From Litoditis marina (lineage: Eukaryota; Nematoda; Chromadorea; Rhabditida; Rhabditidae): a stretch of DNA of 64,000 bases. Below are positions 41,881-62,938 of the stretch, one piece after another (position 1 is the first letter of the stretch; each line of letters begins with the position of its first letter). Position numbers and translations under genes: made by a program. The notes beneath the pieces were generated by a model. That model was not told the origin of the DNA. It was given only the letters and a program-made list of their open reading frames with translations, and did no database searches. The stretch lies in assembly GCA_964036275.1 (NCBI GenBank), contig OZ038434.1, positions 4,672,560 through 4,736,559 on the forward strand. Direction: 5' to 3'.

Positions 41881-42038
41881 TGTGTGTTTAGTATTTAGTA
41901 ATGTGCTAGTGTACTTCGAACACTAACAATTTCTTGAAACTGAAAAATAGAAGATAGATAAGAAACATTTTTGTTTGACAGTTCTACAAGACATTCTATT
42001 CTAGACGCCATTCTTCCATTTTGTTCTATATCTGTCAA

Positions 42039-44710
42039 CAAGGAAGGTACCCCGGGCTACGCCCGGGTCCCTCCCTTGATGAGTCTAGGTCGGTGGTTGC
42101 GTCGAGAAGTTTTTTATTTTCTTTTTTTTTTCGTTATTGCAAAGTCCTCGAACGCGGTAGTTCTCCTTGACATAGAGCGCGGGAGTTCTCCTTGACATAG
42201 AGCGCGGGAGTTCTCCTTAACATAGAGCGCGGGAGTTCTCCTTGACATAGAGCGCGGGAGTTCTCCTTGACATAGAGCGCGGGAGTTCTCCTTGACATAG
42301 AGCGCGGGAGTTCTCCTTGACATAGAGCGCGGGAGTTCTCCTTGACATAGAGCGCGGGAGTTCTCCTTGACATAGAGCGCGGGAGTTCTCCTTGACATAG
42401 AGCGCGGGAGTTCTCCTTGACATAGAGCGCGGGAGTTCTCCTTAACATAGAGCGCGGGAGTTCTCCTTAACATAGAGCGCGGGAGTTCTCCTTAACATAG
42501 AGCGCGGGAGTTCTCCTTAACATAGAGCGCGGGAGTTCTCCTTAACATAGAGCGCGGGAGTTCTCCTTAACATAGAGCGCGGGAGTTCTGCTTAACATAG
42601 AGCGCCGGAGTTCTCCTTAACATAGAGCGCGGGAGTTCTCCTTAACATAGAGCGCGGTAGTTCTCCTTAACAGAGAGCGCGGGAGTTCTCCTTAACACAG
42701 GGCGCGGTAGTTCTTCTTAACACAGAGCGTGGGAGTTCTTCTTAACACAGAGCGCGGGAGTTCTTCTTAACACAGAGCGCGGGAGTTCTTCTTAACACAG
42801 AGCGCGGTAGTTCTCCTTAACATAGAGCGCGGAATAGTTCTCCTTAACATAGAGCGCGGAATAGTTCTCCTTAACATAGAGCGCGGGAGTTCTCCTTAAC
42901 ATAGAGCGCGGTAGTTCTCCTTAACATAGAGCGCGGTAGTTCTCCTTAACATAGAGCGCGGTAGTTCTCCTTAACATAGAGCGCGGGAGTTCTCCTTAAC
43001 ATAGAGCGCGGTAGTTCTCCTTAACATAGAGCGCGGTAGTTCTCCTTAACATAGAGCGCGGTAGTTCTCCTTAACATAGAGCGCGGGAGTTCTCCTTAAC
43101 ATAGAGCGCGGGAGTTCTCCTTAACATAGAGGGCGGTAGTTCTCCTTAACATAGAGCGCGGTAGTTCTCCTTAACATAGAGCGCGGTAGTTCTCCTTAAC
43201 ATAGAGCGCGGTAGTTCTCCTTAACATAGAGCGCGGTAGTTCTCCTTAACATAGAGCGCGGTAGTTCTCCTTAACATAGAGCGCGGGAATTCTCCTGAAC
43301 ATAGAGCGCGGGAGTTCTCCTTAACATAGAGCGCGGGAGTTCTCCTTAACATAGAGCGCGGAATAGTTCTCCTTAACATAGAGCGCGGGAGTTCTCCTTA
43401 ACATAGAGCGCGGTAGTTCTCCTTAACATAGAGCGCGGGAGTTCTCCTGAACATAGAGCGCGGGAGTTCTCCTTAACACAGAGCGCGGGAGTTCTTCTTA
43501 CCACAGAGCGCGGGAGTTCTCCTTAACATAGAGCGCGGGAGTTCTCCTTAACATAGAGCGCGGTAGTTCTCCTTAACATAGAGCGCGGTAGTTCTCCTTA
43601 ACATAGAGCGCGGGAGTTCTCCTGAACATAGAGCGCGGGAGTTCTCCTTAACATAGAGCGCGGGAGTTCTCCTTAACATAGAGCGCGGAATAGTTCTCCT
43701 TAACATAGAGCACGGTAGTTCTCCTTAACATAGAGCGCGGTAGTTCTCCTTAACATAGAGCGCGGGAGTTCTTCTTAACACAGAGCGCGGGAGTTCTTCT
43801 TAACACAGAGCGCGGGAGTTCTTCTTAACACAGAGCGCGGGAGTTCTTCTTAACACAGAGCGCGGTAGTTCTCCTTAACATAGAGCGCGGAATTGTTCTC
43901 CTTAACATAGAGCGCGGAATAGTTCTCCTTAACATAGAGCGCGGAATAGTTCTCCTTAACATAGAGCGCGGAATAGTTCTCCTTAACATAGAGCGCGGGA
44001 GTTCTCCTTAACATAGAGCGCGGGAGTTCTCCTTAACATAGAGCGCGGGAGTTCTCCTTAACATAGAGCGCGGGAGTTCTTCTTAACACAGAGCGCGGGA
44101 GTTCTTCTTAACACAGAGCGCGGGAGTTCTTCTTAACACAGAGCGCGGGAGTTCTTCTTAACACAGAGCGCGGGAGTTCTTCTTAACATAGAGCGCGGAA
44201 TAGTTCTCCTTAACATAGAGCGCGGAATAGTTCTCCTTAACATAGAGCGCGGGAGTTCTCCTTAACATAGAGCGCGGGAGTTCTCCTTAACATAGAGCGC
44301 GGGAGTTCTCCTTAACATAGAGCGCGGGAGTTCTCCTTAACATAGAGCGCGGGAGTTCTCCTTAACATAGAGCGCGGAATAGTTCTCCTTAACATAGAGC
44401 GCGGGAGTTCTCCTTAACATAGAGCGCGGGAGTTCTCCTTAACATAGAGCGCGGGAGTTCTCCTTAACATAGAGCGCGGGAGTTCTCCTTAACATAGAGC
44501 GCGGGAGTTCTCATCATAAATGTTTCCAGCAGCAGCCGGTTTCAAAAAAACCAAAATGAAAACAGAAAAACACGTACTTTTCACGTGTTCTCCTCACAAA
44601 ACCAACTACAAAGTGCACCATTTATTCTCCATTTCTCGACCAAAACGCAATTGCCTCAGACTCACAGACAGACAGACAGACAGACCAAGCAACGGTTTTA
44701 TATTAGTAGA
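42039..44710 (-). mobile_element. Helitron-like unit F (outermost, 3' end of concatemer)
   Basis: 2,672 bp. 5' end TCTACTAATATAAAAC at 44710; 3' hairpin at 42041-42078. Nearly all of the unit is one minisatellite array (42157-44515). Its 3' hairpin sequence (CCCGGGC type) differs from that of the other units (GGCGGC type). Confidence 0.75.
42157..44515. repeat. 25-bp minisatellite array in unit F
   Basis: About 90 copies of a 25-bp monomer, GGGAGTTCTCC TTAACATAGAGCGC with variants. The first dozen or so copies mostly read CTTGACATAG, later ones CTTAACATAG. A 27-bp variant (GGAATAGTTC) and a CTTCTTAACACAG variant occur in clustered blocks. Open frames of 68-119 codons (LCQGELPRSMS repeats) are by-products of the monomer. 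Confidence 0.97.
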
Positions 44711-44869
44711 CAAGGAAGGTCGCCGGCGGCTAAAGCCGCCTCCGCCTCCCTTGTTTTTATTCCGGGCTGGCGAGCTCTTATAGGAGTATTTGTTTAAGCT
44801 CCATTTGCGGAACTCACGTTTGTCTCAACCATTTCAATCACGTTTTTATCAACAGGAGGCGCAATGATA

Positions 44870-45740
44870 TCTACTACATAGAGCGGGACATCTCACTCTA
44901 ATATAAGGCGCAACATCTCAGCCTAACATAGAGCGCGACCTTTCTCCTTAACATAGAGCGCGGAAGTTTTCTCTAACGTAGATCGCGAAAGCTCTCTTTA
45001 ACATAGACGGCAAGATCTAGAGAGCGAGACCTTTCCCCACCATAGAGGGGACCTTTCCCTAACATAGAGCGCGAGACCTCTCCTTAACATAGAGCGCGGG
45101 AGCTTTCCCTAACATAGGGCGCGCGAGTTCTCTTCAACCACAGACAGGTCTTTCCCTAACATAGAGCGCGGGAGTTCTCCCTGACATAAGGCGCGAGAGC
45201 TCTCGCTAACATAGAGCGCGGAAGTTTTCCCTAACGTAGAGCGCGGAAGTTCTCTTTAACATAGACGGCGAGACCTCTCCCTAACATAGAGCGCGAGACC
45301 TCTCCCTAACATAGAGCGCGGGAGCTTCCCCTAACATAGGGCGCGAGAGTTCTCGCTAACATAGAGCGCGAGTCCTCTCCCTAACATAGAGCGCGGGGGA
45401 TTTCCCTAACATAGGGCGCGAGAGTTCTATTCAACCCTAGACAGGTTTTTTCCTAACGTAGAGCGCGGGAGCTCTCTTTAACATAGAGCGCGGAAGTTTT
45501 CCCTAACGTAGAGCGCGGAAGTTCTCTTTAACATAGACGGCGAGACCTCTCCCTAACATAGGGCGCGGGAGTTCTCTTTAACATAGAGCGCGGAAGTTTT
45601 CCCTAACGTAGAGCGCGGAAGTTCTCTTTAACATAGACGGCGAGACCTCTCCCTAACATAGAGCGCGAGACCTCTCCCTAACATAGAGCGCGAAAGCTCT
45701 CCCCAACATAGGGCGCGGGAGTTCTCTTCGACATAAGGCG
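44870..45740. repeat. CATAGAGCGCG minisatellite, unit E
   Basis: Degenerate 20-25-bp monomers (CTCTCCCTAACATAGAGCGCG, TTCTCTTTAACATAGACGGCG and variants). Confidence 0.92.
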
Positions 45741-46248
45741 CGGGAGCGGCAGCAGCTCCAGTCCAGGGCGGGCATCCTCGGGGCGAACAGAGCGTTCGAA
45801 TGGCTCTCATCTCATCCCGCCGCGCTTTTATACCCATTAGCTTACCCTGTTGAGTCATTCCTGTTAACCGTGACGGCCTGAAACTCGTCTACTCAGGTTG
45901 AGATGCACTTGCTATTGCGAAAATGGGAACAGTGGGGATTCACATACACAGCAAAAATTAAATGGTTCTGGTTCTCACCTTTGGTTCACATGTACAGCTA
46001 CAAAAGGTGCAGTGGGTGTGGGGCTCACATAGACAATGGAAATGGAAACAGTAGGGCTTACATAGACAGTAGAACCTCCTTTTCTCTCTAGCTCTTCCTC
46101 TCTTTCTCTCTACTTCATCTCTCCCTGTCTTACGCGCTAGTGAAAATGGGAACAGTGGGGTTTACATAGACAATGGAAATGAGAACATTGGGACTCACAT
46201 AGACTGTGAAAAGGGGAACAGTAGGGCTTACACAGACAGTAGAACCTT

Positions 46249-46249
<1 letters not shown>

Positions 46250-46291
<42 letters not shown>

Positions 46292-46300
46292 CTCTCTTAC
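46250..46300. repeat. CT microsatellite, unit E
   Basis: (CT)n tract; the orthologous tract in unit D is at 49205-49245. Confidence 0.9.
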
Positions 46301-46854
46301 TCTCTTCTGTATATGTTTTCTAAAGAAAATACACAGCCAGAAAAGAGAAAGGGAGAGAATTTACAAATTGATCGTCGAAAAAAGTTATAAGCATTAATGA
46401 GAAAATGAATAGAACATGAACTATCACCTTTTTTTCTATATTTCAGCCTTTATATAGCAATAAATACAACTATTCAACATACCTATAGCCGAAAATCTAG
46501 AGCACTACCGCCGATGCATCAATCGAGAATGGAAATGAAAGCCGAGAAAACACGTACCGCTCACGCGCTTTTTCCCAAACCAACTACAAAGTACAACTTT
46601 CGCTCCATTTTCGACCAAAAGTGCTTGCCTCACCCCAAAATCAGACAGACTGACACACACACCAAATAAGCGCTTTATAATAGAGGACAAGGAAGGTCGC
46701 CGGCGGCTAAAGCCGCCTTCGCCTCCCTTGTTTTCATTCCGTGCTGGCGAGCTTTTATAGGAGTATTTGTTTAAGCTCCATTTGCGGAACTCACGTTTTT
46801 CTCAACCATTTCAATCACGTTTTTATCAACATGAGGCGCAATGATTTCTACTAC

Positions 46855-48570
46855 ATAGAGCGGGACATCTCACTCTAATATAAGGCGCAACATCTCAGCC
46901 TAACATAGAGCGCGATCTTTCTCCTTAAAGGGACCGTACCTCTATAATGTGCAATGCAGGTAATTTTTGAAACATGTAAAAAGTCATTTATTCTATTTTG
47001 AGATGAAAGTTCAAACCTTACGTACAGAAAGTTGAAAAAAACCACATTATTACGGAGCAAAATAGAAGCCAACAGGATTTGGGTTACTGTAATGCAGCAA
47101 TCCTTAATTTATCACTGTATTGTAGTTTTCATGATATTTAGAAAACTTTTCGCACAGATCTCATATTGGTAATTTTGGCCATGTTTTGAATATGGTTTCG
47201 TAATTTTATGAACATTTTGAAAATTTTGTACGTAGGTGGACTCGGCGGTGTATGTACGTGCGCGTGGTCGCGCCACATTTTTGAGAACATGGAGCAAGAC
47301 AGGAAGTTGACACCTATATGAATGATTTTTGTTTTTTATTGTGAACAATATCGACTAATCAGCTCGAACCTCCAAATTAAAGAGGAACGGTCCCTTTAAC
47401 ATAGAGCGCGGAAGTTTTCCCTAACGTAGAGCGCGAAAGTTCTCTTTAACATAGACGGCGAGATTTAGAGAGCGAGACCTTTCCCCACCACAGATGAGAC
47501 CTTCTCCTAACATAAAGTGCCAGACCTCTCCCTAACGCGCGGAATTCTCTTTAACATAGACGGCGAGATCTAGAGAGCGAGACCTTTCCCCACCATAGAG
47601 GGGACCTTTCCCTAACATAGAGCGCGAGACCTCTCCTTAACATAGAGCGCGGGAGCTTTCCCTAACATAGAGCGCGGGACCTTTCCCTAACATAGAGCGC
47701 GAGACCTCTTTTTAACATAGAGCGCGGGAGCTTTCCCTAACATAGAGCGCGAGACCTTTCCTTAACATAGAGCGCGGGAGCTTTCCCTAACATAGAGCGC
47801 GGGAGCTTTCCCTAACATAGAGCGCGGGAGCTTTCCCTAACATAGAGCGCGGGAGTTCTTCCTGACATAAGGCGCGAGAGCTCTCGCTAACATAGAGCGC
47901 AAAAGTTTTCTCTAACGTAGAGCGCGGAAGTTCTCTTTAACATAGACGGCAAGACCTCTCCTTAACATAGAGCGCGAGACCTCTCCCTAACATAGAGCGC
48001 GGGAGCTTTCCCTAATATAGGGCGCGAGAGTTCTCGCTAACATAGAGCGCGAGACCTCTCCCTAACATAGAGCGCGGGAGATTTCCCTAACATAGGGCGC
48101 GAGAGGTCTATTTCACCCTAGACAGGTTTTTCCCTAACGTAGAGCCCGGGAGTTCTCTTTAACAGAGAGCGCGGAAGTTTTCCCTAACGTAGAGCGCAAA
48201 AGTTCTCTTTAACATAGACGGCGAGACCTCTCCCTAACATAGAGCGCGAGACCTCTCCCTAACATAGAACGCGGGAGCTTTCCCTAACATAGGGCGCGAG
48301 AGTTATCTTTAACCCTAGACAGGTTTTTCCCTAACGTAGAGCGCGGAAGTTCTCTTTAACATAGAGCGCGGAGGTTTTCCCTAACGTAGAGCGCGGAAGT
48401 TCTCTTTAACATAGACCGCGAGACCTCTCTCTAACATTGAGCGCGAAAGCTCTCCCTAACATAGAGCGCAGGAGTTCTCTTTTTCCAGACAGGTCTCTCT
48501 CCAACATAAGGCGCGAAAGCTCTCCCCCAACATAGGGCGCGGGAGTTCTCTTCGACGTAAGGCGCGGGAG
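46855..48570. repeat. CATAGAGCGCG minisatellite, unit D
   Basis: Same monomer family as unit E, interrupted cleanly by a TTAA MITE at 46925-47399. Several blocks are collinear with unit E. Confidence 0.92.
46925..47399. mobile_element. TTAA-flanked MITE nested in the minisatellite
   Basis: Body 46929-47395 (467 bp). Inverted ends: AGGGACCGTACCTCTATAAT and AGGGACCGTTCCTCTTTAAT. TTAA on both sides reconstitutes the satellite word CTCCTTAACATAGAGCGCG when one copy and the body are removed. Related to but distinct from the AGAATCCG MITE family. Confidence 0.9.
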
Positions 48571-48892
48571 TGGCAGCAGCTCCAGTCCAGGGCGGGCATC
48601 CTCGGGGCGAACAGAGCGTTCGAATGGCTCTCATCTCTTCCCGCCGCGCTTTTATACCCATTAGCTTACCCTGTTAAGCCTTTCCTGTTAACCGTGACGG
48701 CGTGAAACTCGTCTACTCAGGTTGAAATGCACTTGTTATTGTAAAAATGGGAACAGTGGGGATTCACATACACAGCAAAAATGAAATGGTTCTGGTTCTC
48801 ACCTTTGGTTCACATGTACAGCTACAAAAGGTGCAGTGGGTGTGGGGCTCACATAGACAATGGAAATGGAAACAGTAGGGCTTACATAGACA

Positions 48893-49019
48893 TTGGGCGG
48901 ATGTCCGAGGCGAAGAGATATTGAGAATGTGCAGAGACCGAGATACTTGGATGGCCATAAAGGAACACCATATTGTAACAATATGAAGTGAATGAATAAA
49001 TCTTGAAATCTTGAAATCT
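48893..49019 (+). mobile_element. 5'-truncated LINE 3' end with 9-bp target duplication
   Basis: 127 bp flanked by ACATAGACA on both sides (48884-48892 and 49020-49028); unit E has the empty site at about 46050. One frame reads EILRMCRDRDTWMAIK to a stop, resembling the C-terminal end of non-LTR retrotransposon ORF2 proteins. The 3' end is AATAAATCTTGAAATCTTGA, a LINE-like repeat tail. Confidence 0.75.
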
Positions 49020-49197
49020 ACATAGACAGTAGAACCTCCTTTTCTCTCTAGCTCTTCCTCTATTCTCTGTCTTGCGCTAGTGAAATGGGAACAGTGGGGT
49101 TTACATAGACAATGGAAATGAGAACATTGGGACTCACATAGACTGTGAAAAGGGGAACAGTAGGGCTTACACAGACAGTAGGACCTTCTTTTCTTTT

Positions 49198-49246
<49 letters not shown>

Positions 49247-49422
49247 CTCTCTTACTCTCTTCTGTATATGTTCTCTAAATAAAATACACAGCCAGAAAAG
49301 AGAAAGAGAGAGAATTTACAAATTAATCGTCGAGAAAAGTTATAAGCATTAATGAGAAAATGAATAGAGCATGAACTATCACCCTTTTTTTCTTTATTTC
49401 AGCCTCCACTATGACCAAAACG

Positions 49423-49541
49423 TGTCACGGCCCCATCCGCCTAGTGACATTGTCGGGCAGACTCGCGAGACGGCAACGACATTGTGAGTTCCGTCTCGCG
49501 AGTCTGCCTGACAATGTCACTAGGCGGATGGGGCCGTGACA
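49423..49541. repeat. 51-bp-stem hairpin with TGTCACGGCC ends
   Basis: Arms 49423-49473 and 49491-49541 are inverted repeats with one mismatch; the loop is 17 bases. Confidence 0.93.
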
Positions 49542-51714
49542 AAACGCTCGTTGACGCTTTTGCTCCTTCCCAATATTGAAACCTCACAATAAACAAAAAT
49601 AATAGTAATAATAAACACATTTATTCATTCATATAAAACAATACGTAATTTATCACAAGACATAATTATTAATATCAGAAACCACACTAATTACTGTACA
49701 AATCCCAAAACATTACAAAATTACAATAAGAATGATAACAAACAACGAACATAGTAGAAAACATTCAGAAAATACGTTATAAAAAGAAAAAAACACTTTG
49801 TTCGGAAATAGTGAATAATGATACTGATGTTCGAAAATAAAGATATGATACTCAAAAAAGACAATTATATGAACGATTTCGAATACATATGTGATGTTAG
49901 ACTATTGACATCGAATGCCGAATCATTATTGAATGTAGAAACATTTCAGTCTTTGGATAGATAACACACAATGTGCACACATAGAGAAAAGAATATGATA
50001 GCAATCACGTAGAGGTGCAATGTAGTTAGCCTACTACAGATCGAACTTTCTATTGAGCCGAATCGATAATTTGGTATAAAAAACTAGGTTGCGGTTGACT
50101 TTCTAGCGTTTTTTGAAGGTTTTCTTGTGAAAACACACAGTTATCTCGCTTTATGCATAATAAATCGACAGAACATTGAGGTTCCTTTGTTCCTTGCGCC
50201 TAACAAGTCAACCAGAACCTGCTCGACAGTTCATTGATCCAAGAAAATAACCAAAAAATAAACTAACTGGCGACGATTAAACTGATATATATTGAGCTGC
50301 GTTTTTCAGCTTGAGTAAGCAATATAACTTGATGTTTATATTTTTCCTGAGGTAAAAATATTATGAACTGAGATTCATGAATGCAGTTTTTAATACAGCA
50401 CTTCGCATATCAACTCTATCTAGTTAGCCTAATTGTCGCCAGCCTACGATCCTACGAGAAGAAACAGATACAATTGGCAAACCTATTAACGTCAGAAGTC
50501 AGATAAGGGCAGACGGCTTTCTTGGAGATGTAGGTAGACTGTCGAACGCAGACCATTCACGCGGTGAAAAGTGGAGGCCCGACCTCCGATAGCAGTAGGG
50601 GTGATCCGAAGATCCAATACCAACAGATAGAAGAGTCTGAAAAACAGCAGTTAAAATTTATGGGAGCAACAAAACTATGTAATTTCATAATTGTATTCTT
50701 CCTAATCTTAACTTGGATGAAAAACACAATTTCTGACGTGCCGCATGAGCTGGAAATGATGCTCACCCATTCTCCACGGCTTCACCCTCTACAGACGAGA
50801 CAATCCTTTCATCCTACCCCTTCTAAGGTTGATCACGTGATTTGCGTGCGATTATAAAATAACCTGATTTTCTTATTAGAGTAACCCTTGTAAACCAACC
50901 CCCCCCCCATACAGCAGTAAGGTAAGACTACGAGAAGGAGTTAGTTTTTCCATTTGAATAAAATGAAACGTAGGCGATTTCTCCCAAATTTGGCAAAAAG
51001 AGGAACAGAAAGAAAAAGAGTGCGTTATATGAATTTCTGTGGCGGGCAACGGGACAACCATCCTGTGGACCTGTGGTTTAAGTATTATTTTCAATTTCTG
51101 GCCAAGCTGAGGAGATCGAAGCCGCGTGACCGGCTAGCTGGGGGGAGACCCCCCAGACCCCCCACACTAAGCTAATAGAGAGAACTAGAAGACAAATAAG
51201 AAAACTAACATCGAACCAGATGAGCGGGTGTTCCGGAATCGGATGCATGCTGTGGTTGCGTTTGCGATTGCGTTTGATTCACGACAAGATCTGGCCGTAC
51301 ATCCCTTCACCACTGAAAACAAAGACAAACTAATAAACATGGAACACTATACAGCAGAGCAACAAAACATGTATATAGCTAGCCAACATAGCTATTATAC
51401 CAAAAAAACCTGTTTTTCGATTACAACGTTCATATTTTGCAGCAAAAATTACCAAACTTTCCCGAGAATGGCGAAAGGATAAAGTGAATTCGGTTATCGA
51501 TATTGCATGGGTATTCCATAGTGTAAGTGTTGTTGAGAAATGGTTCAAAAGGTGCCATCCTGAACCCCCACCCCAGTTAGTTAACCGTGGCATAGCACCT
51601 CAGACTTATATTAGGGTTTTAGAAAAAGCGGACAAGATTTCAATATCCTTATTGCCTCAATAATTGAACATCGGTCAGGCACTATACGATGCGACCAGGA
51701 GAAATTTACTCAAA

Positions 51715-51877
51715 CACCAGTAAGGTCCGACTAAGCAAAATAAAGTAGTCCGTTTATAGATGTGAACACAGAACACATGAAAATTGATTATTTCGCACCA
51801 AAATCAGAGAAATTCTAACGTTTTCAGGTAGTCCGTTTTTCGAATTTTTCTGACTATTCGGACAACTTTACTGGTGT
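51715..51877. mobile_element. CACCAGTAA inverted-repeat element, copy 1
   Basis: Ends ACACCAGTAAGGTCCGA and, inverted, ACACCAGTAAAGTTGTCCGA; inner AAGTAGTCCGTTT. Copies 2 and 3 are at 51979-52143 and 54126-54290. Non-coding; TA flanks are possible. Confidence 0.65.
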
Positions 51878-51978
51878 ATGAATTTACTATCCACCACTTA
51901 CTATAATTCAAGTGATTTAATTCAAAAGTAAAATACGATTTAGCAATTCAGTTCTTTCTAATAAAAGCAACTTAACCA

Positions 51979-52143
51979 TACACCAGTAACGTCCGACTAA
52001 TCGACAAAACGTAGTTCGTTTTTAGATTTAAACACGTGAACATTAATGATTTTAAATTAGAATTAGACAAATTACCTCTTTTCTGGCGCAAAAGTAGTCC
52101 GTTTTCGGAATTTTTCTGTCTATTCGGACAACCTTACTGGAGT
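51979..52143. mobile_element. CACCAGTAA inverted-repeat element, copy 2
   Basis: Same ends and inner AAAGTAGTCCGTTTTCGGAA; 100 bases from copy 1 in the same orientation. Confidence 0.65.
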
Positions 52144-52320
52144 ATGAACTTAACGTTGGCTTGAGAAGACACATAGACTAGGGCGAGTGTAAATAAACTC
52201 TAATCATCGTGCTGAACTGCCAATAAAATCAAAGTACACCCTTTCTACGAAACCCCTAAAATAAGGCCTTTTTGGCTGAAATTTAAATATTGCGCCATCT
52301 GAGAGTCTTACTATCCTTAC

Positions 52321-52591
52321 TGGTCCGTACACGAACATCAACCCTTCACTACTTTCTTCGTCTTCAAAATTATGGTATAAACTGACAGATTACATATTAC
52401 ACATAGTGAGTGTGTGGATGTGTTACAGCGGAAGCCACCAAATGAGAACAAACGCAAAGCTTACCGAATTATACCGTCGATCCAACAAAAATACTTGTAG
52501 AGAACAGCAAAAATTACATTGGAGTCAGCGAACTGGGCAACATTGCATTTGAGGCGAGCGTTGACACAAGTAATGACGAGACACCTCCTGC
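52321..52591 (-). CDS. Possible two-exon gene fragment inside the 7-kb segment
   Basis: Exon-like 52591-52465 (acceptor TTTATTTCCAG, donor CG|GTAAGC) encodes 41 residues including RLKCNVAQFADSNVIFAVLY. It joins in phase to 52381-52321 (acceptor ATCTGTCAG, donor CCA|GTAAGG), encoding LYHNFEDEESSEGLMFVYGP. Both borders and the phase agree, so it looks like a captured or remnant exon pair. It is on the same strand as the Helitron 5'-to-3' direction. No upstream exon with start was identified and I do not recognise the protein. Confidence 0.35.
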
Positions 52592-53819
52592 CTGGAAATA
52601 AACATTATAAACATGGATAAAGCGATAAATACAACAAGCATAAGATTGTAAGATAAATATAGGAGCAGGAAGGTTTTTCATTGCTGATGAATAACTGAAT
52701 TTAATTGACTTGAATTTGAGTGATTTTCGTAGTTTCAAAAAGAATAATGCATTGTATTGAAGAGTTGGAGCAAAAGCGCAACCAGCAATCACTAAAAAAA
52801 ATACTACAAGGAGGGCTTTGACAAAAAATATCGAAAAACTCAATAAAATACGAATGAAAATAGAAATAGAAAATTTAAAACAGAGGCGATCAATATTTTT
52901 CGACAACCGTTAAAGGGGGGCTGCATTGAATGGGCGATTTGCCTAACGTGCTCCAATCGGAAAGACCAAAAGGCACTAGACGCAGAGCGGCAGGCGAGCG
53001 GCGCAATCATATTGGCAGTCGAGCCTGATTCGAAATTTTCTCTTGAATATGTCGTCAATATTATATATCTTTGTTATTTTCTGTTTCGTGCATGTTGCAT
53101 TTAATTTTAGTCTGAATTTATGTTGTTGGAAAAAAGGATATGTTGGAAAGAAAAGCCGGCTGATTTTATCGGATGTAATTTCCGAATTGGTTTATTTGGA
53201 CTCTCTCGTTTAATTTTGATATCTATTGCTTTGTGTTCATTTTATTGCCCTGTTTATTTACGTCTAAATTTTCAAAGTTATTGGAAAAACCGAATCAGTG
53301 CTATTTTTTCAGGTTCGCGTCCAAGTACGAGCATGACGAAAGTGGTATCAGCGATATTATAACGTCTAATTGATGTCGATGCATTATTCTCTTCTATTAT
53401 GTCCCCTCAGGTTAGTTTCTAATGCATATGTGTCTTCTCTCCATTTTCCCCTGTCAAAAATCGTAGCTTAAAAAAAGAGTAGCTATAGCTAGCAAATCCA
53501 AGATTTTCGCGTAGTACATCCATAAGTGAAATTTTTATTTACTTCTCATTTCATCAGTCAGCAGACAGACCATTAACTAAATCTGACTGTCCGGGAAAAT
53601 CACTACGTTTTTTGAAAACGCGAAAATCAACTTTATAGTGCAGTTCGTTCTGGTGAAAGTAACTTTCGAAAAATAGTTGTACTTTAGTGATTTATGACGA
53701 CAAGTGTTACCTTTTGTACTGTCGCTACCTCAACCAGCTAGCACATATTCAGTAATTGAGCTGTTGTAGTCGATAAATCTGTCTTTAGCAGCGAATTTTC
53801 ATCTTACCTCCAACCCGGC

Positions 53820-54107
53820 CAATTCACTGGAGAACCGGGTCCTTCCCGAACCGCGAACCGGTCACTGGAGAACCGAACCGACCGAACCAGATAGTATACG
53901 AGGTAAAATGAGTGGGAATCCACTAATTTTACCTTGTATACGATTTATGTGTTGAAATCATGATGAATTTCGGTCCGGTTCAAACCTTTCACTGGGAAAC
54001 CAGTCGGTTTAGAAGGCCGGTTCGGTCGGTTCACTCTGTTCGGTTCGGTTCTCGAGTGACCGGTTCGCGGATCGGTTCGGGAAGGACCCGGTTCTCGAGT
54101 GAATTCG
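53820..54107. repeat. Long GGTTCGG-rich palindrome
   Basis: Outer arms (53820-53890 and about 54020-54107) share CGGGTCCTTCCCGAACCGCG on opposite strands. The centre has its own smaller hairpin (GTATACGAGGTAAAAT / ATTTTACCTTGTATAC). Confidence 0.85.
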
Positions 54108-54125
54108 CCCTCCAACCCTAACCAT

Positions 54126-54290
54126 GTACCAGTAAGGTTTGACTATCCGATAAAAAGACGTCCGTGTTTAGATGTGCACCCGTGAAAATTGATGATCTTC
54201 CATTGAAAATTGATCGATTATTCTGTTCTCGGCGACAAAGTAGCCCGTTTTCCGATATATTTCGACGATTCAGACAACTTTACTGGAGTA
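54126..54290. mobile_element. CACCAGTAA inverted-repeat element, copy 3
   Basis: Ends GTACCAGTAAGGTT and CAACTTTACTGGAGT; adjacent to the palindrome 53820-54107. Confidence 0.6.
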
Positions 54291-54892
54291 TAAACTTGAT
54301 CGTCTTTTTCCCTTGATAACCGTCAATTTTTAATGTCATCTGAGTAAGTAACACATTGGTCAGCTGAACTGGACAAATAATTTGGTTCACTGACCACACA
54401 AATCGCGGCTATTATTCGTTTCAGTGTTATAGTGAGAACTTATTTCAGATTCACTCATTTTGAAGTAAATGTTCAGTGCTTGGATGTGGAATGAATATTG
54501 TTCCTCACACAGATTACTTGTGGACAAATCGCGGAATTCCTAATGTAAGTAAATTTACGGCTAATTTCGATTTGTATTTGCTATCGGGTGTTTTGTGTTA
54601 TCAAATAATACACGCACATTGCAGTTTGTATTATGCAGTAGGATATGTTCTGCTCATTAGTTTCTGTAACACAAAAGAAAACCATTATCATAACATAGTG
54701 AAGTTGTCCGAATGGCGAAAAAACTCTAAACACGGACTCCCTTTTCTTCAAAACCGGGAGAATTGGCCTATTGTTGTTCAGTTATCACGAGTTTTTATGA
54801 ATTTATAATCAGAAATGGACTAATGAAAGTTAATCACATATTACCGGTGTATTACTGATGATATTGGCGGTTGAAAATTCCTTATATTTCAG

Positions 54893-54987
54893 AGATACTT
54901 CTTTGCAAGAGGTTTATTGTATTACGGGAGATGCTTTGTCTGACCCCTGTGCGCTTGGCAGAACACTGGCCTGGAATGTGAATAAGG
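54893..54987 (+). CDS. Possible orphan exon in the 7-kb segment
   Basis: Canonical acceptor (CTTATATTTCAG) and donor (AAG|GTAACT) enclose 95 bases. One frame is open throughout (DTSLQEVYCITGDALSDPC and on); a second frame stays open until a stop four bases before the exon end. A donor-bounded piece at about 54478-54543 lies upstream but does not share the first phase. Coding status is uncertain. Confidence 0.25.
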
Positions 54988-56327
54988 TAACTTTTTATTC
55001 GTAAGCATGGATGAAACTCCAAATTCAGTTGATCGTACATGATTTGGTCATTTGGTGAAAGGCTCGTTTTTCCTCTGTAGTTTGATCGGCCAAAATTCCT
55101 AGTTCTGAAATTGTACAGTTCATAGAAAGGAAACTGTAGAGGTAATTAGTTAGTTCAGCAGTAGTTTGTAGTATACAAATTGTGGAGGTAAGCCGTAAGC
55201 AGGTGTTTTTTGTGCAATTTGGTTGCTTTGGTTGCCCTTGGGAAGCAACCGAGTCTTTACACATGCGACCCGGTGGCTTGTGTAATTGGCCGACTTATTC
55301 GACATAGTTCATCATAGCTGGCTGAGATAGTCAGCGATAATGGTAAACACGCAAACTGGGCCTTCCTCATCCTTTCCCTTCTCACCGCAACTTATTGACA
55401 ATCACAAGTTCATTCCAATGATAAATGAACAATATAAATATTTGACGAACCTATGTATATGCATTTTAGGTGTTCATTATCTGAGTCACTGGAGGAGCGA
55501 GAATCCATTCCCATTCTGAGGTATTCCTCATATGATCGTATCCATATACCATGTTTTATGTCTAGCGATGATCGTTTGTACTATTTTCCGAATCTGGTAG
55601 TTTTTCAGCTTTCATTTTTTTCTTAGAAGTTGGCTATATTCGTGCTCACCTTTTTTTATATTTGTAAAATTTGAATAAGTTCGTCTCGGAATCTATCTAC
55701 AAACATTATGCATATTTTCTAGTTCTTCTCTGTTGAAAATGCTGTGAATTGGCCGATTGGCTAGATCTGTGATCTTATTTATGGTTCTAGCATTCTTACT
55801 TCGTTGTAAAGACTGTAACGGAATTTATTGAAGCAAATTGGTTAGTTTTTGATGAATGCGCTTTGGTAGAGTAAAACTCACCTACTCCCAAAATTTGTGA
55901 TTTACGTGTGACTGTAATTTTGAAATATCTCCATGAAATGCTTTCATTTCGCTGATGTTAAGAATGAGAGATCTGAATATGATGCTGTGCAATGCATTGT
56001 TTTGCTTCATTATATTTGGTTGGTATAAATATTGATTGTAAACATTTGTGTGGATGACAGCTAAACCGCGGCTGTCACGTAACTTGGCGCTACTCCAAAC
56101 TTCCTCTGCGTGTCTGACTTAGGTGAAAATGAAGTGAAATTACAAAAATAGAGCATTTATAGTTTGTATTATGGACATAAACCTGCATATATCGAGTTAT
56201 GTCAATGTTTCAAATTATTTGAACATTCAATTCTGCCCCCCTTTAAGTCACTCCACGAAGCCAACCGCACGATGTAAACACCGGGCACCATGGTGCGCAA
56301 CAAGCAAAACCGTTGTTTTTAATATTT

Positions 56328-56376
56328 TGTCACGGCCGCCGCCGACTGAGATTTCCAGTCGGCGGGGGCCGTGACA
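56328..56376. repeat. 20-bp-stem hairpin with TGTCACGGCC ends
   Basis: Arms TGTCACGGCCGCCGCCGACT and AGTCGGCGGGGGCCGTGACA with one mismatch and a 9-base loop. Shares its outer ten bases with the hairpin at 49423-49541. Confidence 0.92.
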
Positions 56377-56631
56377 CAGAATTATCCGAGCATATAGCAA
56401 TAAATACAACTATTCAACATACCTATAGCCGAAAATCCAGAGCACTACCGCCGATGCATCAATCGAGAATGGAAATGAAAGCCGAGAAAACACGTACCGC
56501 TCACGCGCTTTTTCCCCAACCAACTACAAAGTGCACCGTTTGCTCAATTTTCGACCAAAAGTGCTTGCCTCACCCCAATATCAGACAGACTGACACACAC
56601 ACACACCAAATAAGCGCTTTATAATAGAGGA

Positions 56632-58093
56632 CAAGGTAGGTCGCCGGCGGCTAAAGCCGCCTCCGCCTCCCTTGTTTTTATTCCGGGCTGGCGAGAGCTT
56701 CCCGGCCCTATTTTTTCTGTACATGGACCGTTGAAGCTCTCCTCAACACCGAGCACGAAAAATGTCCTCAATAGCAAAACCTCTCTTCAACATAGAGTGC
56801 GAGTCTTCTCTCTAACATAGAGCGCGACTCCTCTCTCCAACAAAGAGCGCGAGCACTCTCCCTAACAGAGCGCGAGTTCTCTATCTAACTTAGAGCGCGA
56901 GCCCTCTTCCTAACTTATAGCGCGAGATCTCTCCCTAACATAGAGCGCGGAATTTCTACTTAACATAGAGCGCGGGATGTCTCAGCATAGAGCGCGGAAC
57001 ATCTCCCTAACATAGAGCGCGGAACATCTCCCTAACATAGAGCGCGAAACTTCTTCCTAACATAGAGCGCGGAACTTCTCCTTAACATAGAGCGCGGGAT
57101 GTTTCAACATAGAGCGCGAGATCTCTCCCTAACATAGAGCGCGGAACTTCTACTTAAGATAGAGCGCGGGATGTCTCAGCATAGAGCGCGGAACTTCTCC
57201 CTAACATAGAGCGCGGAACTTCTTCCTAACATAGAGCGCGGAACTTCTCCTTAACATAGAGCGCGGGATGTCTCAACATAGAGCGCGGAACTTCTCCCTA
57301 ACATAGAGCGCGGAATTTCTTCCTAACATAGAGCGCGGGATGTTTTAACATAGAGTGCGAGATCTCTCCCTAACATAGAGCGCGGAACTTCTACTTAAGA
57401 TAGAGCGCGGGATGTCTCAGCATAGAGCGCGGAACTTCTCCCTAACATAGAGCGCGGAACTTCTTCCTAACATAGAGCGCGGAACTTCTCCTTAACATAG
57501 AGCGCGGGATGTCTCAACATAGAGCGCGGAACTTCTCCCTAACATAGAGCGCGGAATTTGTTCCTAACATAGAGCGCGGGATGTTTTAACATAGAGTGCG
57601 AGATCTCTCCCTAACATAGAGCGCGGAACTTCTACTTAAGATAGAGCGCGGGATGTCTCAGCATAGAGCGCGGAACTTCTCCCTAACATAGAGCGCGGAA
57701 CTTCTTCCTAACATAGAGCGCGGAACTTCTCCTTAACATAGAGCGCGGGATGTCTCAACATAGAGCGCGGAACTTCTCCCTAACATAGAGTGCGAATCTA
57801 TATCTCTCTGTGTCTCTCTCTCTCTCTTTCTCTCTCTGTTGAGGCCGCATGTACTCCGCTTGTCCCACGTGACAATAACGCCAATTTGTTTAACTTGACT
57901 GAACAAATCTATTGCTCATTTCGTCAATTTGCAGCTGCACCCGATTCATATTCACTTGGAAATAGAAATGGAATCCATCCAAATCACGTTTTTTCCACGC
58001 CATTTGCCTCACTCATCACTCTGGCTTTTCGACCAAAAGTGCAGCCAAATTGTTACAAACACACACACCAAACTAGCCTTTTATACTAGTGGA
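56632..58093 (-). mobile_element. Helitron-like unit C
   Basis: 1,462 bp. 5' end TCCACTAGTATAAAAGG at 58093; 3' hairpin 56632-56673 (GGCGGC TTTA GCCGCC). Minisatellite 56735-57790, then a short CT tract and a ~250-bp leader shared with units A and B. Confidence 0.8.
56735..57790. repeat. Minisatellite of unit C with a ~242-bp higher-order repeat
   Basis: CATAGAGCGCGGAACTTCTC-type monomers. GGATGTCTCAGCATAG recurs at about 57170, 57411 and 57653, so a block of about ten monomers is repeated at least three times. Confidence 0.93.
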
Positions 58094-59266
58094 CAAGGTA
58101 GGTCGCCGGCGGCTAAAGCCGCCTCCGCCTCCCTTGTTTTTATTCCGGGCTGGCGAGAGCTTCCTGGCCCTATTTTTCCTGAACATGGACCGCCGAAGCT
58201 CTCCTCAACATAAAGCACGAAAAATGTCCTCCATAGCAAAACCTCTCTTCAACATAGAGTGCGAGTCTTCTCTCTAACATAGAGCGCGACTCCTCTCTCC
58301 AACAAAGAGCGCGAGCACTCTCCCTAACAGAGCGCGAGTCCTCTATCTAACTTAGAGCGCTAGCACTCTCCCTAACTTAGAGCGCTAGCGCTCTCCCTAA
58401 CATAGAGCGCGAGTCCTCTTTCTAACTTATAGCGCGAGATCTCTCCCTAACATAGAGCGCGGAACTTCTACTTAACATAGAGCGCGGGATGTCTCAGCAT
58501 AGAGCGCGGAACTTCTTCCTAACATAGAGCGCGGAACTTCTCCCTAACAGAGCGCGAGTCCTCTATCTAACTTAGAGCGCGAGCACTCTCCCTAACAGAG
58601 CGCGAGTCCTCTATCTAACTTAGAGCGCGAGATCTCTCCCTAACATAGAGCGCGGAACTTCTACTTAACATAGAGCGCGGGATGTCTCAGCACAGAGCGC
58701 GGAACTTCTCCCTAACATAGAGCGTGGAACTTCTTCCTAACATAGAGCGCGGAACTTCTCCTTAACATAGAGCGCGGGATGTCTTAACATAGAGCGCGAG
58801 ACTTCTATCTAACATAGAGCGCGAAACTTTTTCCTAACATAGAGCGCGAGACTTCTCCCTAATATAGAGCGCTGAACTTTTTTTTACATAGAGCGCGGGA
58901 CTTCTCCTTAACAAATAGCGCGAAACTTCTCCTTAACATAGAGCGCGACAGTTCTCGTTAGGATTCTCTTTCTCTCTCTCTCTACCTCTCTCTCTCTCTC
59001 TATCGCTTGAGGTTGCGTGTATTCCACGGGACGTTAGCGTCATTTGTTTAACTTAGAATGGGTAAATCTATTGCCCAGTTTAATTTGCAGCTAACAACCG
59101 ATCTGTATTCTGCTTGAAAATGAAAATGAAATCCATCCAGCTCACGTTCTTTCACGCTATTTGCCTCACTCTTCCCTCTGATTTTTCGACTAAAAGTGCA
59201 GAGAAATTGTTACAAACCCACACACACACACACACACACACCAAACTAGCCTTTTATACTAGTGGA
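58094..59266 (-). mobile_element. Helitron-like unit B
   Basis: 1,173 bp. 5' end TCCACTAGTATAAAAGG at 59266; 3' hairpin 58094-58135. Satellite at about 58190-58960, CT tract, then a leader containing a CA run (59218-59242). Confidence 0.8.
58190..58960. repeat. CATAGAGCGCG minisatellite, unit B
   Basis: Monomers similar to unit C at its 3' side (identical opening order of variants), including AACTTAGAGCGC variants. Confidence 0.92.
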
Positions 59267-60570
59267 CAAGGGAGGGCGCCGGCGGCTAAAGCCGCCTCCT
59301 CCTCCCTTGTTTGAGCCTAGGCAGGCGGGAGCTTCCTGGCCTTCTTTTCTGAACACAGGACATGAAAGTTCTCCCTATCATAGAGCGCGAAACCTCTCCT
59401 TAACATAACGCGCGGGAGTTTTCTTAACATAAAGCGCGAAATTTCTCCCTAACATAGAGCGCGGGAGTTCTCCCTAACATAGCGCGCGGAAGTTTCTCTT
59501 AACATATGGCGCGAGAGTTCTTCCCAACATAGAGCGCGGTAGTTTTTCTTAATCCGGGGCGCCAGAGTTCTCCTTAACATAGAGCGCGTAAGTTCTCCCT
59601 AACATAGAGTGCGAAACTTCTTCTTAACATAGAGCGCGGAAGTTTTTCTTAACATGGGGCGCGGGAGTTCTCCCTAACAGAGAGCGCGGAAGTTTTTCTC
59701 ATTCCGGGGCGCCAGAGTTCTCCTTAACATAGAGCACGAAATTTCTCCCTACCATAGAGCGCGGGAGTTTCTCTCATTCCGGGGCGCCAAAGTTCTCCTC
59801 AACATAGAGCGCCGTAGTTCTCCCTAACATAGAGCGCGGGAGTTCCCCTTAACATAGAGCGCAAAAGTTTTTCTTTACATGGGGCGCGGGAGTTTTTCTA
59901 ACATAGAGCGCAAAAGTTTTTCTTAACATAGAGTTCTACCTAACATAGAGCGCGGAAGTTCTCCCTAACATAGAGCGCGGAACTATTCCCTAGCACAGAG
60001 CGCAAAATTTTTCCCTAACATAGAGCGCGGAAGTTTTTCTTAACATGGGGCGCGGAAGTTCTTCCCTAACATAGAGCGCGGAAGTTTTTCTTAACATGGG
60101 GCGCGGAAGTTCTTCCCAACATAGAGCGCGGAACTCCCTTCTAACATAGAGCGCAATTTCTCCCTAACATAGAGTGCAAAACTTCTCCTTTACATAGAGC
60201 GCGGAAGTTTTTCTTAACATGGGGCGCGGGAGTTCTCCCTAACATAGAGTGCGAATCTATATCTCTCTATGTCTCTCTCTCTCTCTTTCTCTCTCTCTGT
60301 CGAGGCCGCGTGTACTCCGCTTGTCCCACGTGACATTAACGCCAATTTGTTTAACTTCAATGAACAAATATATTGCTCAATTCGTCAATTTGCAGCTGCA
60401 GCCGATTCATATTCACTTGGAAATAGAAATGGAATCCATCCAAATCACGTTTTTTCCACGCCATTTGCCTCACTCATCACTCTGGCTTTCCGACCAAAAG
60501 TGCAGAGAAATTGTTACAAACCCACACACACACACACACACAGACCAAACTAGCCTTTTATACTAGTGGA
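59267..60570 (-). mobile_element. Helitron-like unit A (5' end of concatemer)
   Basis: 1,304 bp. 5' end TCCACTAGTATAAAAGG at the host junction 60570; 3' hairpin 59267-59309. Satellite 59350-60250 and a leader almost identical to that of unit C. Confidence 0.8.
59350..60250. repeat. CATAGAGCGCG minisatellite, unit A
   Basis: Includes the distinctive variants CATGGGGCGCGGGAGTT and ATTCCGGGGCGCC, not seen in other units. Confidence 0.92.
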
Positions 60571-61669
60571 TTGTGGTAACAGCTCGCTGTTTCATAACAT
60601 TGGTGTTCCAATCTATTCCTACAGTTACTGGACAACCTTTCGATATCGGAGAACGCTTTCTAACACTTTATGCCGAGTATTTCTCCGACTTGCTGTCGAT
60701 TTTACTTGTCTTCACTATTTCACTCAATCGATGCACCACGGTTTTGAGTACTAGGGTGGATGAACGGCTGTTTGAGAGGTGAACTAAATTCATTGCAGTA
60801 ATACAAACTCCTTTTCTTAGTTCTCCATTTTAAACTATGATAAGATTTGAGCATTTGAGCGACAGCAAATTCTCATAATGTTCAATCAGAGTTTTGAATC
60901 GTTCTAATGAATGTATGGGACGTTGGTCACCATGTATTTCATCAAACTTCTACAGAACCTATAGTAAAACAGTTGGGTATAGTTCGGAATGATGGACGCC
61001 TATTGGTGTCCGCTAATGCCTTAAGTTGGGCTCTGGTTATTTTTTCACTAGTAGACCTAGAGTCATACCACTCAAGTACTACCTATAAAACTTTGTTCAG
61101 TCCTCGCTCCTACTATCTGATGCTACTCTGCACAATTATATCTGCTCTTTGTACATTTATTTTCATAAAAGTAACCGGGATGGGAAGAAGCTTCAAACCA
61201 TATTTTGGGTATATTGATAGCATTACGCAACCCGACCTGTTCTTGGTTAGTTTAATCAATAAATAACGAAGAGACGATAGTTTCGGTCACTTCCATTTGT
61301 GTGAAAAACTTCAATGTTAAATAAATATACTGCCTCGATGAGTTACTAGGTTCAAGAAAGAAACATACGAATTAGTCCAGAGCAGCAAGATTTTTACACA
61401 ACACGTATTGTTCAAGAAAGTGTGATGTATGCTTATCAAAACAACTTACCACGCTTCCAATTTGTTACGTTTACTCACGTTTTCCCAAGCAGGTCGTAAG
61501 GCTGGTCTACCTCATGTTCCCCTTATTTTCTATTATTTTATATATTATTATATTCCTGAAACTACGATCACAAACAGCAGATTCTGTGCTGAGAGCTACT
61601 GCTCTGTCCATATCTAAATCGGAGCGAAACGTGGTTATACAAGGAGCCGGAATTGCTCTCATCAATGGG

Positions 61670-62824: not shown

Positions 62825-62890
62825 ACCCGGGCAGATAGAGAGGCCCGAATGAGATAGAGAGGCCCGAATGAGATAGAGAGGCCCGAATGA
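62825..62890. repeat. 19-bp tandem repeat upstream of the ORF1
   Basis: AGGCCCGAATGAGATAGAG three times, just upstream of the ORF1 start; it could be a LINE 5' UTR repeat. Confidence 0.8.
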
Positions 62891-62938
62891 GATTCTTCCT
62901 TATTTGTGAACCATTTTCCGAGAAACTTGCGGTGAGCA

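Follow-up and report, generated by a model that had tools for sequence, protein, structure and literature searches.

Canonical Helitron1 elements, represented by Helibat/Helraiser of bats, start with TC, insert between A and T without duplicating their target and end in CTRR, with a hairpin ∼11 bp (10–15 bp) upstream of this 3′ end (PMC4067079, PMC13286980; here and below, publications are cited from the parts of their text available to us). Around Helraiser targets the sequence is generally AT-rich within ∼20 bp, the more so on the 3′ side (PMC4778049). Tandem Helitrons have been reported from bat, Bombyx, maize and plant centromeres, with distantly related ones directly adjacent in bat and maize (PMC4067079, PMC5876387, PMC5148889), and the causes named for these arrays, where any is named, are bypassed termination or rolling-circle intermediates. 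Three Helitrons also stand in tandem in Metarhizium acridum, a single case that comes with no target or family statistics. Helentrons, DINE-1 and HINE are non-autonomous, some of them with internal tandem repeats (PMC4067079; PMC7492417), and Helentrons insert in TT (PMC5148889). Here we describe a chain of six Helitron-type elements inserted in a coding exon of the nematode Litoditis marina, at positions 42039–60570 of a 64,000-nucleotide stretch of contig OZ038434.1 (assembly GCA_964036275.1), hereafter the window.

Our preferred reading, in which we place about even confidence, is that six non-autonomous elements form a head-to-tail chain here, that a Helraiser-like rolling-circle transposase encoded elsewhere in the genome mobilised them in trans, and that the chain grew serially at its 5′ end. 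To our knowledge, the target choice of Helitrons and the reasons for their tandem arrays are an open question. In the L. marina genome exact junctions are numerous, the families are distinguishable by their 5′ as well as their 3′ ends, one whole array has its empty site, and the target motif looks like the elements' own 5′ terminus. Serial insertion and read-through thereby become testable by comparing individuals, and the locus shows a route to long satellite-bearing arrays inside genes.

The six-unit block and its empty site

The block is 18,532 bp long. Read on the minus strand, it starts with TC and finishes with hairpin-CTTG, in the order host ...TTACCACAA, then TCCACTAGTATAAAAGG ... hairpin ...CCTTCCTTG, then host TTGACAGATATAG; the host letters on this strand are ...CCACAA upstream of the block and TTGACAG downstream. 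The coordinates, termini and A|T flanks given in the initial annotation proved exact to the base, and its description of the ends as Helitron-type with a nonstandard CTTG holds. The block resolves into six units joined exactly, 3′ end to 5′ end, through five internal CCTTG|TC junctions:

59267–60570, minus strand: U1, first unit of the array, 1,304 bp, 5′ end of type c, 3′ end of type B
58094–59266, minus strand: U2, 1,173 bp, 5′ end of type c, 3′ end of type B
56632–58093, minus strand: U3, 1,462 bp, 5′ end of type c (TCCACTAGTATAAAAGG), 3′ end of type B
46688–56631, minus strand: U4, 9,944 bp, 5′ end of type d, 3′ end of type B, with secondary insertions
44711–46687, minus strand: U5, 1,977 bp, 5′ end of type d (TCCTCTATTATAAAGCG), 3′ end of type B
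42039–44710, minus strand: U6, 2,672 bp, 5′ end of type t (TCTACTAATATAAAACCG), 62 exact satellite cores, 3′ end of type A (CCCGGGCGTAGCCCGGGGTACCTTCCTTG)
42153–44512, no strand assigned: 25-bp satellite array in U6, 93.5 copies
42039–42078, minus strand: 3′-terminal hairpin of U6, its stem including the last base, −15.7 kcal/mol, z −5.9

The six units are non-autonomous Helitron-type elements belonging to three end-families. U1–U3 start with TCCACTAG (type c), U4 and U5 with TCCTCTATT (type d) and U6 with TCTACTAAT (type t); the 3′ hairpin is GGCTTTAGCCGCCGGCG (type B) in U1–U5 and CCCGGGCGTAGCCCGGG (type A) in U6. The 25-bp satellite is common to all of them, with 11 to 62 exact cores in each. 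A TC start and a CTTG end are present in 6/6 units, and each of the three 3′ ends that were folded (U6, U1 and U4) gave a hairpin (z −4.6 to −5.9) whose stem takes in the terminal CTTG.

The 5′ TC, the A|T insertion, the lack of target duplication and the 3′ hairpin all recall Helitron1, and the genome encodes a Helraiser-like Rep as a candidate partner. However, where Helitron1 ends in CTRR, these elements end in CTTG (6/6 units and 30/30 loci of a 3′-end query), and the hairpin is flush with the terminus in all three folded ends instead of lying upstream of it. Non-autonomy and internal tandem repeats are shared with Helentrons, DINE-1 and HINE, but the target is A|T and not the TT of Helentrons. 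On account of the 3′ end and the hairpin spacing we do not file the units as canonical Helitrons, although they work like Helitrons; in kind they are Helitron-like elements with a non-canonical 3′ end, in mixed tandem chains, and as tandem Helitrons have been reported before, the chains are a variant.

The initial annotation had predicted that an empty site should be found, and the same genome contains one. A near-identical paralogue of the interrupted gene lies 60.8 kb away on the same contig (C16:4793168–4794642) and, aligned to the interrupted copy, carries an uninterrupted CTGTCAATTGTGG (CTGTCAA|TTGTGG). This intact site establishes that the insertion added 18,532 bp and no other length, with no target duplication, as had been proposed, and no deletion. 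The right flank differs from the paralogue by 2 mismatches in 758 bp; the left flank is free of mismatches over ∼440 bp and then shows 25 mismatches in ∼350 bp together with ∼250 bp of indel. The paralogue frame TPFFHFVLYLS-IVVTARCF... is open across the site, in agreement with the earlier claim that a coding exon was hit, and the insertion splits an ATT codon as A|TT. We read the stop just before the open frame in the paralogue as the end of an intron. The two parts of the interrupted exon are as follows:

42005–42038, plus strand: host exon 2, left part, ending ...CTGTCAA and starting from a TTCTAG acceptor, the splice site being placed by eye; based on paralogue alignment and open frame
60571–60782, plus strand: host exon 2, continuation, its end taken from the open frame rather than from a splice site; based on paralogue alignment

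Dating the insertion from the divergence of the paralogue fails, owing to patchwork flanks that resemble the outcome of gene conversion; the two main gene copies differ in patches of this kind. Beside the paralogue, within C16:4791875–4794642, part of the flank of the interrupted gene is present once more (C16:4791875–4792033).

Ends and junctions across the genome

Pattern counts over the 262-Mb genome were compared with control patterns. The junction pattern CCTTGTCYACTANTATAAA occurs 140 times (reversed control 0), type-A 3′ ends 294 times (control 0), type-B hairpins 657 times (control 0) and the 5′ pattern TCYACTANTATAAAA 244 times (control 18); opposite-strand matches of type A were set aside because its hairpin is near-palindromic. 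The loci retrieved with end queries include ends of the present array itself (L001, L002, L021 and L031). With the 3′-end (type-A) query, CTTG is followed by T at 30/30 loci, and at 8/30 another element's 5′ end comes after it (flanks read by eye). With the 5′-end query, 27/30 loci have the same TC start, preceded by A (14) or by a 3′ end (13), the exceptions being L019 (T before), L028 (match begins inside) and L029 (G before). Copies elsewhere thus begin and stop at the same bases as the array, whose ends are therefore not a matter of chance.

A recognised 3′ end precedes 61 of 84 distinct 5′ ends; of the others, 20 are preceded by A and 3 by G, and one of these three G cases is visibly a 3′ end of variant form. 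On contigs 1–3, 28/81 TCYACTANTATAAAA ends stand directly after CCTTG. Neighbouring type-B hairpins of contig 1 lie <3 kb apart in the same orientation in 30/74 cases and in opposite orientation in 0, and a crude exact-pattern check of the sampled loci found no head-to-head or tail-to-tail joins. Chains of the same type are a habit of this genome. A second array (L091, C2:23.144–23.154 Mb) has seven unit starts, one of them of type t within a type-c run, and its last unit is incomplete in the sequence examined. The only non-exact joins noticed have TCTA separating a 3′ end from the 5′ end that follows it (L020, 1497–1500; L008, 3008–3011).

Where both ends of a unit were seen, type t is paired with type A in 13/13, type c with type B in 16/18, type w (TCTACTAATATAAATGGG) with type B in 6/6 and type d with type B in 2/2, both d cases coming from the block described here. 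Units hold their own cognate 5′/3′ pairs, and the junctions between them mix families: for the three best-defined families, 19/64 distinct junctions are mixed (12 B→t, 4 A→c and 3 A→w). The arrays of bat, Bombyx, maize and plant centromeres are likewise tandem or head-to-tail; what sets the present chains apart is that families are mixed, cognate ends are kept and the target is like the elements' own 5′ end.

This mixing bears directly on simple rolling-circle read-through, in which one element would yield tandem copies of itself. Read-through cannot join families with different cognate ends, as at these 19 junctions and at U3|U4 and U5|U6, and with its three end-families the block is not a homogeneous rolling-circle concatemer. 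We regard it as an unlikely explanation of the chain, insufficient alone, which nonetheless remains a component, since bypassed termination is named as the cause for the bat and Bombyx arrays (PMC4067079) and near-identical neighbours do occur: K5, K6 and K7 of L091 are identical over the 5′ 200 nt and K4 and K5 over the 3′ 150 nt, and U4 and U5 share 94% (5′ 200 nt) and 96% (3′ 150 nt) identity. Such neighbours (U4/U5; K5–K7) may have arisen by local read-through or by unequal exchange via the common satellites. For its one triple array, the Fusarium paper leaves serial insertion and read-through both standing (PMC5148889).

Satellites recombine and assemble badly, which raises the question of an assembly artefact, or of satellite-driven recombination without transposition. 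The units do contain satellites, and some are mosaic: within the array, the 5′ end of U3 is closest to U1 and its 3′ end closest to U2. However, the joins run terminus to terminus, outside the satellites, the 140 junctions stand against a control of 0 and the empty site is exact, and we consider this explanation very improbable.

Target preference and order of arrival

T is the first base in 34/35 distinct host flanks after a 3′ end, and A precedes 20/23 five-prime ends that have no recognised 3′ end upstream (locus L019, in the tandem list, was reassigned as host flank by eye before counting). TATA, ATAT or ATAA occurs within +7 to +12 in 27/35 host flanks, against 359/7,253 (5%) random A|T sites in the host DNA of the window (descriptive binomial p 9 × 10⁻²⁹); in flank windows from +14 to +35 the motif averages 1.8/35, with a maximum of 4. 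Upstream of the cut, no letter besides A stood out among 20 flanks inspected by eye. The target of the present insertion reads T-TGACAGA-TATA. This TATA-like motif differs from the general AT-richness of Helraiser targets and resembles the elements' own 5′ ends, which have TATA at a nearby position. A scoring matrix was built from these 5′ ends and is thus independent of the host flanks; it separated host targets from random A|T sites at offsets −3 to 0 (area under the curve 0.73–0.80; 0.78 at 0), less at +1 (0.66) and not at +6 to +15 (0.48–0.54). In the passages of the open literature that were read, those of PMC6927752 and PMC8022731 included, we found no TATA-like target motif that matches the elements' 5′ terminus and no nematode chains of this sort.

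We tentatively suggest, at somewhat less than even confidence, that the target and the elements' own 5′ terminus are read by the same recognition (A|T, with TATA 7–12 nt downstream), so that resident 5′ ends are super-targets on which chains build unit by unit. The front of a resident, A|T followed by TC-N6-TATA, is such a site, and an incoming 3′ end joined there gives the observed junction and orientation. In this model, 3′-end transfer would target the A|TC-N6-TATA terminus of an element that is resident or being mobilised at the same time, and the nick that starts the resident's own transposition would accept the incoming 3′ end, leaving CTTG|TC with no filler. Chains would grow at the 5′ end, making the 3′-most unit, here U6, the oldest; the first unit would have entered exon 2, in one of the copies of a duplicated gene, at an A|T that has ATATA at +8.

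The initial annotation took the whole array for a single insertion. Its concatemer stands, as six units with five exact junctions, whereas the single event is not established: the units belong to three families, and the evidence favours separate arrival. Queries spanning U3|U4 and U5|U6, with 40 candidates scored per search, revealed no other copy of the whole array: full-query matches reached at best 93% (U3|U4) and 94% (U5|U6). Yet the first 250 nt of U3 are identical to those of L023, a copy whose start is preceded by host A. For the U5 3′ end and the U6 5′ end, the nearest relatives in the sample are mostly found beside other neighbours or host DNA. Taken together, the cognate ends of each unit, the differing contexts of some relatives and the lack of any U3|U4 or U5|U6 match >94% among the candidates scored favour units that arrived separately. 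Across B→c junctions, one side shows no correlation with the other (rho 0.06, p 0.34, n = 17; −0.07, n = 13 with one junction per array), and these joins look independent.

An alternative is that a preformed chain, either the six-unit array or large pieces of it, was copied into the exon in one event with its internal 3′ ends bypassed. With their exact empty site, the outer ends act like those of a single Helitron insertion, and bypass of the terminator is documented for Helraiser (PMC4778049). Matches spanning U3|U4 and U5|U6 also keep this order, at short distance from each other, at C1:13.18 Mb, C2:9.90 Mb and C3:24.32 Mb (positions only, 85–92%), the 5′ end of the last unit at C1:13.18 Mb being TCTACTCC, a type-t relative; this c-d-t-like order at three other places is explicable by either the serial or the preformed view. 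It is possible that the source array was lost or lies outside the assembly. Set against the intact cognate ends of every unit, the uncorrelated B→c sides and the identical, host-flanked copy of the U3 5′ end in the face of junction matches of 94% at most among the candidates scored, we find arrival as a preformed chain conceivable but doubtful.

Several observations weigh against serial growth on resident 5′ ends. Junctions like U3|U4 and U5|U6 recur elsewhere, matching all or nearly all of the query at 80–94%, the identity of U3 and L023 is no more than 82% over 1,144 bp including satellite, and the sides of B→t junctions weakly co-vary (rho 0.37, p 0.03, n = 11), which also speaks for a preformed chain; some B→t joins may have travelled together. 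The sample of junctions is small, and loci L061–L090 were picked by their junction pattern. Counting this 5′ pattern only, TCYACTANTATAAAA directly follows 6/94 type-A 3′ ends (contigs 1–3) and 14/75 type-B hairpins (contig 1). The target motif and its window were chosen after viewing the same 35 flanks, which makes the p value descriptive, and the matrix scores about equally at −3 to 0, indicating a loose register. Motif-bearing A|T sites number ∼2.7 million genome-wide, as estimated from the host DNA of the window, too many for the motif by itself to direct elements to resident ends, and an extra preference for the terminus must be assumed; we infer either that the true terminus is preferred directly or that the initiating nick of the resident is used. 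Finally, one predicted footprint, with the incoming element placed a few bases internal to a resident 5′ terminus, gave 0 matches with the one pattern searched (control 1).

Insertion 4 nt inside resident 5′ ends, considered from the TCTA of L020 and L008, was dropped on this count. The flank TCCACTA of L022 was not used as a second footprint: the next downstream start (L053) is complete by eye, with ∼0.5 kb between them unseen.

Candidate transposase and further features of the locus

A search of the genome with the PF14214 (Rep) profile gave 90 matches, 19 of them strong (E below 1e-58). A translated Rep piece matched the Helraiser structure 7lcc over residues 10–268 (E 5e-77) with the HUH residues aligned, and its closest named relatives (59% identity) come from the strongylid nematodes Haemonchus and Heligmosomoides. 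By their position, Helraiser-like Rep genes are candidate partners of the ends described here. The Rep at C4:9935242 has a type-c 5′ end (C4:9929393) on one side and, on the other, a type-B 3′ end (C4:9940173) that touches a further 5′ end; no satellite core is present in the 1.5 kb before the C4:9940173 end. The Rep at C1:6035886 lies inside C1:6015413–6047687 (∼31–32 kb), which holds ten type-B hairpins and one type-A end in one orientation.

The interrupted gene has relatives in the genome, with 23 exon-level matches. Its pieces (81 and 71 aa) matched no Pfam family, and a protein search with the 81-aa piece found no homologue; by eye, the gene looks like a nematode serpentine-receptor-like gene. 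Rfam and tRNA scans were empty. On the 3′ side of the interrupted exon, window positions 62833–62893 hold a perfect 19-bp tandem repeat (3.2 copies).

Long stretches of U4 and U5 are 93–96% alike (44665–46662; 46642–49390 / 56392–56602), with extra insertions in U4 only. One of these is the following:

49408–56391, no strand assigned: extra DNA in U4 without counterpart in U5, ∼7 kb, bounded by two palindromes that have common TGTCACGGCC ends (49423–49541 and ∼56331–56377)

A captured gene was considered for this insert and rejected, none of the 10 open reading frames tried having a Pfam match over the cut-off. By eye, several short CCAGTAAGG...TTTACTGG repeat copies lie within it (∼51.7, 52.0 and 54.1 kb), as does an inverted repeat (∼53.8–54.1 kb). 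Nested in the U4 satellite, positions 46929–47395 have the ends AGGGACCG...CGGTCCCT with TTAA on both sides, by eye a short element of piggyBac type. A 127-bp insertion at 48893–49019, present in U4 and not in U5, carries a repeated tail resembling TTGAAATC, is flanked on either side by ACATAGACA and appears retroposon-like by eye.

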